A stretch of DNA of 12,581 bases. Source: Candidatus Omnitrophota bacterium. GTDB lineage: Bacteria; Omnitrophota; Gorgyraeia; JAFGHF01. Each line of letters opens with the position of its first letter. Within the stretch, counting starts at the first letter, position 1. The stretch lies in the NCBI GenBank assembly GCA_018899075.1, contig JAHIIS010000116.1, positions 1-12,581 on the forward strand, read 5' to 3'. Both the position numbers and the translations under genes were made by a program. A model generated the notes under the pieces. It was not told where the DNA came from, did not search any database, and saw only the letters and a program-made list of their open reading frames with translations. Below, in pieces: positions 2,876-12,581 of the stretch.

Positions 2876-3682
2876 ATGAGTGAACGAATTGGTCTAATTG
2901 CGGGAAACGGTCAGTTTCCCGTGCTTTTTGCTAAAAGCGCCCTCTCTTGCGCAAGAGAGGTTGTGGCCATAGCCGTGCGCGAAGAGACAACCCCCGAACT
3001 GGAAAAATATGTCCAGAAGACCTACTGGATTGGGGTGGGCGAGCTTAAAGAATTTTTCCGGATTCTGAAAAAAGAAGGGCTGAAAAAGGTGGTCATGGCC
3101 GGCCAGATCAGGCCGGCGCATATCTTTGACGAAAATATTTCTATGGACGGGGATTTAAAGAGGTTCTTAAAAAAGGCCAAAGACAAAAGGGCCGGTTCAT
3201 TGTTAGGTGAAATTGCCGCAATGTTAAGAAAAATGGGAATCAGGCTCCTGGATTCCACCACCTTTTTAAAAGGCCATCTTACGCCGCGGGGCATTTTAAC
3301 CAATCTTAAGCCTGCGCCTTCACAGTGGCAGGATATCCGTTTTGGCGCAAGCATCGCCAGGCGCCTCGCCCGCTTGGACGTCGGCCAGACCGTGGTGGTG
3401 AAGGACAAGGCCGTTCTGGCTGTTGAGGCCATTGAAGGCACCGACGAGACAATAAGGCGCGGGGGCGCTTTAGCCGGCGCCGGGGCGGTGGTAGTTAAGG
3501 TAAGCAGGCCCCGCCAGGATATGCGCTTTGACGTCCCTTTCGTGGGGCCCGGGACAATAGATTCTTTAGTTGCGGCATCCTGTGCGGTGCTGGCGATGCA
3601 AGCCGGCAAGACCATCCTCTTTGAAAAAGACGCCTGCCTCAAAATTGCCGACGAGAACAACATCTCCCTTGTCGGCATATAG
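2876..3682 (+). CDS. lpxI: UDP-2,3-diacylglucosamine pyrophosphatase LpxI (DUF1009 family)
   Basis: LpxI hydrolyses UDP-2,3-diacylglucosamine to lipid X and UMP. It is the non-homologous replacement for LpxH, first described in Caulobacter. The 268-residue length fits the family. The N-terminal domain starts with IGLIAGNGQFPVLFAK and includes GVGELKEFFRILKKEG and VVMAGQIRPAHIF. The C-terminal domain has AIEGTDETIRRGG and FDVPFVGPGTID. Asp219 in that last motif is the likely counterpart of the catalytic Asp225 of the Caulobacter enzyme; this pairing is from motif memory, not an alignment. The gene sits 6 nt after lpxA with only a weak ribosome site, so it is probably translated as part of the same message. 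It closes the lipid A run: lpxB, often next, is absent, and a repeat-rich gap follows. I see no lpxH-like gene in the window. Confidence 0.93.
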   Translation: MSERIGLIAGNGQFPVLFAKSALSCAREVVAIAVREETTPELEKYVQKTYWIGVGELKEFFRILKKEGLKKVVMAGQIRPAHIFDENISMDGDLKRFLKKAKDKRAGSLLGEIAAMLRKMGIRLLDSTTFLKGHLTPRGILTNLKPAPSQWQDIRFGASIARRLARLDVGQTVVVKDKAVLAVEAIEGTDETIRRGGALAGAGAVVVKVSRPRQDMRFDVPFVGPGTIDSLVAASCAVLAMQAGKTILFEKDACLKIADENNISLVGI

Positions 3683-10156: not shown

Positions 10157-10927
10157 ATGCGTGAACTGAAAATTGATTCGGCAAAAGTTAAACAGAGGCT
10201 CCTCAGATTTATTCGTAATCAGACAAAAGGCGCGGGCCTTAACAGAGTGCTGGTGGGGCTCTCCGGGGGACTCGACTCAAGCCTGGTGCTCTATCTTTGC
10301 TGTGAGGCCCTGGGAGAAGAGAACGTCTTTGCGCTGATTCTGCCTTATAAAACTACTCCCGCCGAAAGCATAAATTCCGCCAAACTCATTGCCCGCAGAT
10401 ATCAGGTAAGGACGAGGTTCATCGATATTACCCCCCAGGTAGATGCCTATTTTAAGAATTTTCCCGGCGCCGACAAGGTCAGGCGGGGAAACAAAATGGC
10501 GAGAGAGAGGATGAGTATCCTCTATGACCGGTCAAAAGAATTAGGCGCCCTTGTTGCGGGAACCAGCAACAAGACGGAACTTCTCTTAGGATACGGCACG
10601 ATATACGGTGATATAGCCTGCGCCTTTAACCCTCTCGGCGGCCTCTACAAAACCCAGGTGCGCCAGTTGGCTCACGATGCCGGCCTGCCCGGGAGAATAA
10701 TTCGGAAAACCCCCTCCGCCGGACTGTGGCCCGGCCAAAGCGATGAAAAAGAACTGGGTTTGACGTATGCCAGGGTAGACAGGCTGCTTCATTATTTGGT
10801 AGATAAAAAATTTTCAGATAAGAAACTGCTGGGGCTGGGTTTTAAGAAGAGTTTCCTGCAAAAAGTAAAAAGGCGCATCGCCGGGAATGCCTTTAAGCGG
10901 CGCACACCTCCCATCGCCAAAATCTAA
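10157..10927 (+). CDS. nadE: Ammonia-dependent NAD+ synthetase
   Basis: NadE makes NAD+ from deamido-NAD+, ATP and ammonia, the last step of NAD synthesis. At 256 residues it is the short form with no nitrilase-type glutaminase domain, so it should use free ammonia. The ATP-pyrophosphatase loop SGGLDSS is at residues 36-42. GTSNKTELLLGYGTIYGD and FNPLGGLYKTQVRQLA are family signatures for the deamido-NAD and ATP sites, and LWPGQSDEKELGLTY near residue 195 is the conserved C-terminal block. A GAGG ribosome site at 10145-10148 lies 8 nt before the ATG, and a short palindrome CAACA-TAC-TGTTG (10133-10145) partly overlaps it. The stop codon overlaps that of the convergent glutamine synthetase gene by 4 nt. 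I saw no clear promoter; transcription could read through from the gene upstream or start within the repeat. Confidence 0.94.
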   Translation: MRELKIDSAKVKQRLLRFIRNQTKGAGLNRVLVGLSGGLDSSLVLYLCCEALGEENVFALILPYKTTPAESINSAKLIARRYQVRTRFIDITPQVDAYFKNFPGADKVRRGNKMARERMSILYDRSKELGALVAGTSNKTELLLGYGTIYGDIACAFNPLGGLYKTQVRQLAHDAGLPGRIIRKTPSAGLWPGQSDEKELGLTYARVDRLLHYLVDKKFSDKKLLGLGFKKSFLQKVKRRIAGNAFKRRTPPIAKI

Positions 10928-12435
10928 AGGACAGGCAGATACTTCTTAATCTCGTGAGAGGTAATCTGGATACGGTATTCCTCCCATTCGCGTTCTTTGT
11001 TTAAGATAAAGCGCGTAAAGATATGTTCGCCCAGGGTCTTGCGCACCAGCGCGCTTTTTTTAGTCTCTTCGATGCCTTCAAAGAGGTTTCCCGGAAGGGA
11101 ATGAAGGCCCCGCCTTTTTCTTTCTTCCATCGCCATTTCATAGATATTGGGCTCCATAGGCTCAGGGATCTTATATCTTTTCTCGATGCCTTCCAGGCCC
11201 GCCGCCAGCATTACCGCAAAGGCTAAGTAAGGGTTACAGGCGGGGTCAGGGCAGCGCAGTTCCGCGCGGGTGGCCTTTTCGTTTCCCGGCCGGTATAAAG
11301 GGACGCGGATAAGGGCGGTGCGGTTACGCTGGCCCCAGGAAATATACACCGGGGCCTCGAAGCCCGCCACCAGCCGCTTATAGGAGTTGACCCACTGGGC
11401 GGTTAGCGCGCAGATTTCCCGCGCGTGTTTAAGCTGTCCGGCGATAAACTGTTTGGCTGCCTGCGAAAGGCTGCATTTATCTTTTTTATCAAAGAAGGCA
11501 TTCTTCTTACCGCGAAATAGAGATTGGTGCAGGTGCATCCCCGTGCCGTTTACGCCGAATATCGGCTTGGGCATAAAGGTGGCATGAACGCCTTGCTGCT
11601 GGGCTATTTCCTTGATTACAAAACGGCAGGTGAGGATGTTGTCCGCAGTTTTCAGGGCGTCGCTGAACTTGGGGTCGATCTCGTGCTGGCTCGGCGAGAC
11701 CTCGTGGTGTGAGGCCTCCACGACAATGCCCATCTCCTCCAGCGTCCTTACTGTGCGGTTGCGCAGATTATTGGCAATGTCGTTGGGGATTAATTCAAAA
11801 TAGGAGCCTTCGTCCAGGACTTCCGGTTTTTTGTCCGTTTTAAAATAAAAGTATTCTATTTCCGGCCCCACATAGAAATCGAAGCCCATATCTCCGGCGT
11901 GCCGCAAAATGCGCTTAAGCGCCTCCCGGGTGTCGCCCGCATAAGGGCTGCCGTCGGGATTTAAGATATCGCAGAACATCCGCCCGATGGGAAAATCCTT
12001 TTTTGTCCAGGGCAGGATTGTAAATGTATGCGGGTCGGGCCTGGCAATGATGTCGCTTTCCTGGGCCTCGGCGAATCCGGTAACGGAGGAGCCGTCAAAT
12101 CCCTTACCGTGTTTTAAGGCCTCGGGAAGCTCTCCCGCGGTAATTGAAATACATTTAAGGGTCCCCAGAATATCCACAAACCAGAGCTGGATAGTTCTAA
12201 CCCCCTTTTCTTTAACAAGACGCAGGAGTTCTTCTGCCTTTGCCCCTTTCTTCGAATGTCTTTTTTCAGGGAGCCCCGGGGATAATTTCAATTCCGGCGT
12301 TCCTTGCCCGGGGATAATATATTGCCTCCCTACCTTTATCGCCTTGATTTTCCCCCGCTTAATCCGCTCGATTACCGCCTGACGGGAAATCCGCAGTTTC
12401 TTAGCCAACTGCGTGGCCGTAAGATATCTTTCCAT
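10924..12435 (-). CDS. glnA: Type I glutamine synthetase with fused N-terminal helix-turn-helix domain
   Basis: Glutamine synthetase makes glutamine from glutamate, ammonia and ATP. Residues about 65-503 are a complete type I enzyme. They include the beta-grasp domain with FDGSS (Asp114, the ammonia-site latch), metal ligands in GPEIEYF (Glu192, Glu194) and EASHHEV (Glu240, Glu245), GMHLHQS (His301), the flap Glu360 in GFEAPV, and RCPDPACNPYLAFA. Length and the NIYEMAMEERKRRGLHSLP block fit the GSI-alpha type; I see no adenylylation-type segment. Unusually, residues 1 to about 45 form an excisionase/MerR-type helix-turn-helix (YLTATQLAKKLRISRQAV...KAIKVGRQYIIP), joined by a basic linker of about 20 residues. 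The position of B. subtilis Arg62, needed for glutamine feedback inhibition, appears to be Glu123. The start is firm: GAGGAGG lies 7 nt upstream, and the helix-turn-helix is in frame without any break. A regulatory, DNA-binding enzyme is inferred. Confidence 0.94.
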   Translation of the reverse strand: MERYLTATQLAKKLRISRQAVIERIKRGKIKAIKVGRQYIIPGQGTPELKLSPGLPEKRHSKKGAKAEELLRLVKEKGVRTIQLWFVDILGTLKCISITAGELPEALKHGKGFDGSSVTGFAEAQESDIIARPDPHTFTILPWTKKDFPIGRMFCDILNPDGSPYAGDTREALKRILRHAGDMGFDFYVGPEIEYFYFKTDKKPEVLDEGSYFELIPNDIANNLRNRTVRTLEEMGIVVEASHHEVSPSQHEIDPKFSDALKTADNILTCRFVIKEIAQQQGVHATFMPKPIFGVNGTGMHLHQSLFRGKKNAFFDKKDKCSLSQAAKQFIAGQLKHAREICALTAQWVNSYKRLVAGFEAPVYISWGQRNRTALIRVPLYRPGNEKATRAELRCPDPACNPYLAFAVMLAAGLEGIEKRYKIPEPMEPNIYEMAMEERKRRGLHSLPGNLFEGIEETKKSALVRKTLGEHIFTRFILNKEREWEEYRIQITSHEIKKYLPVL

Positions 12436-12442
12436 AATAGCG

Positions 12443-12449
12443 CCTCCTC
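12443..12449 (-). promoter_or_regulatory. Strong ribosome binding site for glnA
   Basis: On the minus strand GAGGAGG lies 7 nt before the ATG at 12435. It fixes the start so that the helix-turn-helix domain is part of the protein; no comparable site precedes an internal Met near the beginning of the synthetase domain. Just upstream an A/T-rich stretch has TATTAT (12452-12457, minus strand) as a weak -10 candidate without a good -35. Confidence 0.8.
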
Positions 12450-12513
12450 GTATAATATGTTTTTGTTAAGTTTCTTTATATTTGTTCTTTATTTTTAAGA
12501 GAGATCCTTGTAA

Positions 12514-12534
12514 CATACCCTATTGAAGGGTATG
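12514..12534. promoter_or_regulatory. Perfect palindrome upstream of glnA, candidate operator
   Basis: CATACCCT (12514-12521) and AGGGTATG (12527-12534) are perfect 8-bp inverted repeats around ATTGA, centred about 90 bases upstream of the glnA ATG. There is no T-run on either strand, so it does not look like an intrinsic terminator. A dimeric DNA-binding protein could use it. Whether it belongs to glnA or to a gene beyond the window is unknown. Confidence 0.4.
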
Positions 12535-12581
12535 GAGGGAAGAATCTTCGTCTCCTTGTTGCCCCGATTAACGGGAGCTTC

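Follow-up and report, generated by a model that had tools for sequence, protein, structure and literature searches.

Glutamine synthetase (GS) is a central enzyme of nitrogen metabolism whose control is a model for metabolic regulation, and in Bacillus the enzyme is read by a separate regulator. In B. subtilis and S. aureus, a type I GS is coupled to GlnR (TnrA), a MerR-like winged-helix protein that represses the GS gene; the GlnR/TnrA box has the form TGTNA-N7-TNACA. Elsewhere, an enzyme and a DNA-binding domain are joined in one chain that acts on the genes of its own pathway, which is the domain make-up of BirA and PutA and also that of RbkR, the archaeal riboflavin kinase repressor. BirA and PutA are reported to act as repressors (PMC6978683). 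In B. subtilis, feedback-inhibited GS is reported to bind GlnR, whose C-terminal tail enters the inhibited active site, and to help its weak dimers form on DNA; the inhibited state is held in place by Arg62 (PMC9249791). The corresponding feedback residue of M. mazei GS is R66, and F24, R26, S38, R87, R172, R173 and S189 are reported as the contacts of 2-OG (PMC11957540). Among the literature matches listed, from a search that covered few subscription journals and no bioRxiv, there was no earlier report of a GS fused to a helix-turn-helix (HTH) domain.

Here we describe such a fusion in a stretch of 12,581 nucleotides (hereafter the window), which is the entire contig C82 of G000, a Candidatus Omnitrophota draft genome of 847 kb and 90% completeness. 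An initial annotation of the window, made from its letters alone, had proposed that a single uninterrupted frame preceded by a strong ribosome site encodes a GS fused to an excisionase/MerR-type HTH, and that the product is a self-contained nitrogen sensor-regulator. The frame and its coordinates proved correct, the gene being on the minus strand. It and its surroundings can be laid out as follows.

10924 to 12435, minus strand: HTH-GS fusion gene, 503 amino acids in a single open frame (ATG at 12435-12433; stop at 10926-10924, included).
12307 to 12432, minus strand: HTH_17 winged-helix head, residues 2-43, as delimited by Pfam, conservation, an AlphaFold model and fold comparison; its recognition helix comprises residues 18-27.
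12250 to 12306, minus strand: linker, residues 44-62, disordered and hypervariable among relatives.
10927 to 12249, minus strand: type I glutamine synthetase domain, residues 63-503, as delimited by Pfam, NCBIfam and invariant residues.
12443 to 12449, minus strand: Shine-Dalgarno sequence GAGGAGG, recognized by eye.
12445 to 12581, strand not given: 137 bp corresponding to positions 1634-1770 of contig C147 of G000, at the position occupied by the operator and promoter in relatives.

That the synthetase is complete and of type I was borne out by Pfam matches to Gln-synt_N (residues 79-160) and Gln-synt_C (residues 167-499, E 1.7e-124) and by a score of 500.2 bits against the NCBIfam type I GlnA model TIGR00653, whose cut-off is 429.15. 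In a 45-row alignment, residues D114, E192, E194, E245, E252, H301, R354, E360, R372, E392 and R394 are invariant, and we take their roles to be catalytic. The head was matched by HTH_17 at residues 4-43 (E 1.7e-7, 31.8 bits against a cut-off of 27), and the NCBIfam model excise scored slightly below its cut-off (28.2 versus 28.8 bits). Fold comparison of the AlphaFold model, in which residues 45-64 have a pLDDT below 50, placed the head closest to BldC and Xis; weak Foldseek matches include the winged helices of BirA and RbkR. A PDB sequence search with the head alone yielded no match at E <= 1, and one with an alignment of heads yielded none better than E 0.07. Instead of a separate MerR-like regulator with a GS-binding C-terminal tail, as in the GlnR/TnrA systems, the fusion has a covalent, BldC/Xis-like N-terminal head that runs into the GS domain. 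The window holds a second composite gene, at 774-2093, where Pfam matches to LpxC and FabA indicate an LpxC-FabZ-like fusion, a kind of gene known elsewhere; it belongs to a lipid A cluster that also includes LpxI (2876-3682).

Because the gene lies only 146 bp from the end of the contig, and that end sequence is common to another contig, a frameshift, a misassembly or a wrong start joining two genes had to be considered. The search for the same architecture across genomes, however, yielded 29 non-identical fused genes (28 including that of the window, plus L231), counted after removal of identical proteins and stemming from several separate assembly projects. One of them, L032, is on a single-contig chromosome (CP070837.1) that encodes the same open frame, head included; two others, L063 and L068, are truncated towards the C-terminus by the ends of their contigs. 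GS matches at E <= 0.001 were found in 55 of the 59 genomes searched (that of the window and 58 relatives). For G001, G003 and G004 the best match covers residues 1-503 at 82-86% identity, and for G005, G037 and G039 it covers residues 3-503. In a scan of contigs, 25 of the best 80 loci include the head; most are labelled Omnitrophota and one simply 'bacterium'. Since 29 non-identical genes share the open frame, we regard the chance that the fusion is an artefact as negligible; it is genuine, conserved and, in our view, purposeful.

Among 26 fused sequences, mean pairwise identity is 78% in the GS part and 65% in the head, and drops to 13% in the linker (residues 44-66, 18-34 amino acids long). 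All 28 fused sequences compared agree in head residues R18, Q19, A20, I25, A32, G36, Y39, I40 and I41, and conservation of the recognition helix, which the initial annotation had put forward as a check, was thereby confirmed. Given the contrast between this conserved helix and the hypervariable linker, we reject the idea that the head is a decaying remnant. A second start yielding head-less GS from the same mRNA seems unlikely, as an SD-like stretch precedes an internal ATG (codons 46-90) in only two of 28 genes (L039 and L044). A tree built from 105 GS proteins needs two changes of head state to account for the 28 fused rows, most simply read as one gain and one loss. Together with the head-less L051 they form a 29-row group (SH-aLRT 92), within which L051 is nested in a nine-row subgroup (SH-aLRT 99); the closest outgroups are head-less GS proteins, mostly from Omnitrophota.

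Upstream of the fused genes we identified a candidate operator. A palindrome within two mismatches of TTTACAANTGTAAA is present at the promoter in 27 of the 28 fused upstream regions, and in that of L231 as well (28 of 29). No such palindrome occurs upstream of 74 head-less GS genes, a set that includes 13 of the 14 nearest head-less rows and from which three of 77 rows (L059, L071 and L075), with less than 100 bp upstream, were omitted. Within 200 bp, the best match has no mismatch in six fused regions, one in 14, two in seven and four in a single case, that of the window; for head-less regions the best match has three mismatches in five and four or more in 69. Approximately 2% of letter-shuffled fused upstream regions get to two mismatches or fewer. 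The conserved site, TTTACA-N2-TGTAAA, is set into a promoter that in 27 of the 28 fused regions consists of TTGACA separated by 16 or 17 bp from a TATACT-like -10: the -35 element is the left half of a palindrome such as CTTGACAANTGTAAAG, and a second palindrome (for instance CTTTACAATTGTAAAG) follows the -10. At two mismatches or fewer, 16 of the 27 promoters have both copies, six only the -35 copy and five only the downstream one, whereas at three or fewer the downstream copy is found in 24, at a spacing of 28 bp in eight, 21 bp in six, 27 bp in five, 26 bp in three and 32 bp in two. Because the -35 copy overlaps the promoter hexamer, part of its conservation is that of the promoter; its right half, however, is no promoter element. 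The literal GlnR/TnrA box occurs in one fused upstream region of 28 (L050) and in none of the 74 head-less ones.

The exceptional head-less L051, in genome G205, keeps lpxB and the promoter TTGACA...GATACACT and has TTGACAATTATTACC at the position of the palindrome; most simply, this lineage would have lost both head and palindrome and kept the promoter. Independent changes of the head on the tree number only two, a sign test on two pairs having no power, and in that test the operator label had been set by hand to equal the head label. By eye, another palindrome resembling TGCCTAAAAATTAGGCA, degenerate in some, lies near the promoter in one subclade (L039, L049, L050, L055 and L068) and in the head-less L051 and L053, and is possibly the site of another regulator.

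A search of 12 fused genomes for CTTGACAANYGTMAA without mismatch returned 13 places, of which 12, in 11 genomes, lie within 200 bp of an HTH-GS start and the thirteenth falls within a 340-codon frame of G004; G141 has no mismatch-free copy. Allowing one mismatch gave 51 rows, compared with 20 for a reversed control pattern; about half of the 51 are away from the HTH-GS promoter, a count near that of the control, and such sites elsewhere make weaker targets possible. Five near-operator sites in G004 were inspected individually: L214 and L215 lie within long open frames, while L216, just past a tRNA-like sequence and ahead of a small open frame, L217, ahead of a small HTH_17 gene whose palindrome differs, and L218, where there is no long frame, are possible targets. 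The upstream regions of amtB in 10 fused genomes contain no operator within two mismatches.

The window's own gene departs from this pattern, its 146 bp of upstream sequence having no operator (best match, four mismatches). Positions 12445-12581 are identical to C147:1634-1770, which lies between an IS110-family transposase gene, recognized by Pfam, and a gene that we take from its sequence to be apgM. An operator pair, TTGACAAATGTAAA...CTATACTTTACAATTGACAA, is found outside the window at positions 6929-6970 of contig C51 of the same genome, after a gene that is, presumably from its sequence, lpxB-like; in G004 and G001, the distance from lpxB to the fused GS, at its aligned start, is 125 bp and 114 bp, respectively. 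C51 ends in 95 bases identical to C147:5-99. Most simply, an IS110-type element appears to separate the operators from the gene in G000, on contigs that are themselves separate and with an element that seems to have another copy, so that the gene in the window may no longer be under its usual control. The sequence shared on the element side stops some 10 nt short of two different start codons, that of the fused GS and that of apgM, and does so inside AGGA of the ribosome site; it looks as though the IS110-type element targets Shine-Dalgarno sequences.

Some relatives also encode free HTH_17 proteins of 85-89 amino acids that are 38-44% identical to the fused head. All six that we fetched (L222-L227, from six Omnitrophota genomes) are followed by a Fic/Doc gene (Pfam PF02661), and each is preceded by three or four copies of the half-site GTTAAC that recur with a period of 28-29 bp and include at least one complete GTTAAC-N4-GTTAAC palindrome, a half-site count reached by none of 2000 shuffles in each case. 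Autoregulated antitoxins are arranged in this way, and these HTH_17 and Fic/Doc pairs resemble autoregulated toxin-antitoxin pairs. The core half-site of the free proteins, TTAACA, is one base apart from the TTTACA of the fused genes, the outermost base usually differing too, and their recognition helix reads SRIAVY versus SRQAVI in the fused head. This covariation of operator core and recognition helix is the strongest hint that the operator of the fused genes is read by the fused head. It also bears on the notion that a different regulator binds the palindrome and that the GS head has some other role, such as ring contacts or localization; HTH_17 domains can indeed serve other uses, but the joint presence and absence of operator and head, the invariant residues of the recognition helix and the closely similar palindrome beside free relatives of the head render it improbable.

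The comparison of sequences shows the fusion, its conservation, an operator that tracks the head and a restriction of the best matches, in 12 genomes, almost entirely to this promoter. From these we infer that the fused head would be the protein that binds the palindrome and that binding would amount to repression; we consider it likely, accordingly with some confidence, that the gene encodes a bifunctional type I GS repressing its own transcription. In the mechanism that we propose, the N-terminal winged helix would bind the palindrome near CTTKACAANTGTAAAG, and because the copies lie over the -35 and/or just past the -10, a bound head would stand in the way of RNA polymerase. An HTH_17 head by itself has no dimerization element, and the GS ring, presumably displaying twelve heads, would supply the pairing through flexible linkers. 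Binding strength might be set by the amount of GS, its assembly state or its substrate state. The arrangement differs from that of BldC, whose sites are described as direct repeats bound by multimers (PMC5859096), whereas the sites of the fused genes are palindromes; from the free HTH_17 proteins it differs in half-site and in setting, theirs being toxin-antitoxin-like.

What the repressing enzyme would respond to can be approached through the signal sites of its GS part. The feedback arginine of GSI-alpha enzymes, located in the D50 loop (R62 in B. subtilis, R66 in M. mazei), corresponds to residue 123 of the window protein, where all 26 fused rows examined have Glu, a further difference from the GlnR/TnrA systems; Glu also occupies this position in eight of eight near head-less rows (L009, L011, L012, L053, L056, L057, L065 and L051); judging from the alignment, this change predates the fusion. 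R26 is replaced by Gln and R173 by Asn, each in 26 of 26 fused rows, and at the seven 2-OG contacts of the 2-OG-assembled M. mazei enzyme, in the order given above, the window protein has T, Q, C, T, R, N and S, two of the seven being kept. Both known signal sites are thus not preserved, and the Bacillus device has not simply been rewired in the fusion. The proposal of a nitrogen sensor-regulator consequently survives in part: one chain, a conserved recognition helix and a candidate operator speak for it, but the arginine of GlnR-style glutamine feedback is Glu, and the sole clear target is the gene's own promoter rather than a nitrogen regulon.

In 20 fused genomes, mostly incomplete drafts, P-II was found above cut-off in 10, weakly in two and not at all in eight, and AmtB was complete in 10, partial or distant in two and not found in eight; the control searches matched in 13 and 14, respectively, of 14 well-known genomes. 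Neither P-II nor AmtB was found in G000, a draft, or in the single-contig G004, and in each of these two genomes one GS gene was found. At least seven others (G001, G003, G182, G190, G258, G272 and G273) have a second GS on a contig shared with amtB and P-II.

These data bear on two accounts of how the enzyme might control itself. In one, DNA binding would be gated by the state of the enzyme (substrate, glutamine occupancy or ring assembly), with repression at plentiful nitrogen. This follows the logic of the GS-GlnR circuit, in which feedback-inhibited GS is reported to help GlnR dimers (PMC9249791), and it fits the eight of 20 genomes without a P-II match, the eight of 20 without an AmtB match and the single GS found in G000 and G004; the Glu at R62/R66 in all fused and near head-less rows, the replacement of F24, R26, R87 and R173 and the P-II matches above cut-off in half of the genomes tell against it, and we hold it to be an almost evenly balanced proposition. 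In the other, the head would bind regardless of ligand and the enzyme would limit its own level like small autorepressors. The loss of the known allosteric sites, the near confinement of the best operator matches to the gene's own promoter and the setting of the closest free head-like proteins found, which adjoin Fic/Doc genes and have operators laid out in the same way, all agree with such control by amount, while the joining of head to enzyme, where a free repressor could have served, hints, not decisively, that the state of the enzyme matters; we rate this account as quite possible, if short of probable. More tentatively, the fusion could be a single-chain nitrogen regulator in which the twelve tethered heads of the ring bind operators at their own promoter solely when the enzyme is in a particular catalytic or assembly state, replacing the P-II, AmtB and GlnR layers where P-II and AmtB are absent. 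The head would have been captured from a toxin-antitoxin-type autorepressor, and the recognition helix and the operator core would have changed together, the latter at one base in each half-site.

The probable autorepressing GS belongs with the trigger enzymes BirA and PutA in its mode of working, as a variant new to the GS field. It is set apart from these proteins and from RbkR by an unrelated enzyme with an expected 12-subunit ring, by its HTH_17 head and by best operator matches that lie almost only at its own promoter. A covalent enzyme-repressor with known operators would be a minimal, testable version of the GS-regulator circuit. It would provide a natural system for examining how DNA-binding heads are displayed by a ring enzyme, and one in which a domain and its operator can be traced on a tree to the point where the two are lost together. 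It also offers a guess at nitrogen control in Omnitrophota without P-II or AmtB: in single-GS genomes of this kind, such as G000 and G004, glutamine supply would be governed mainly by this circuit.
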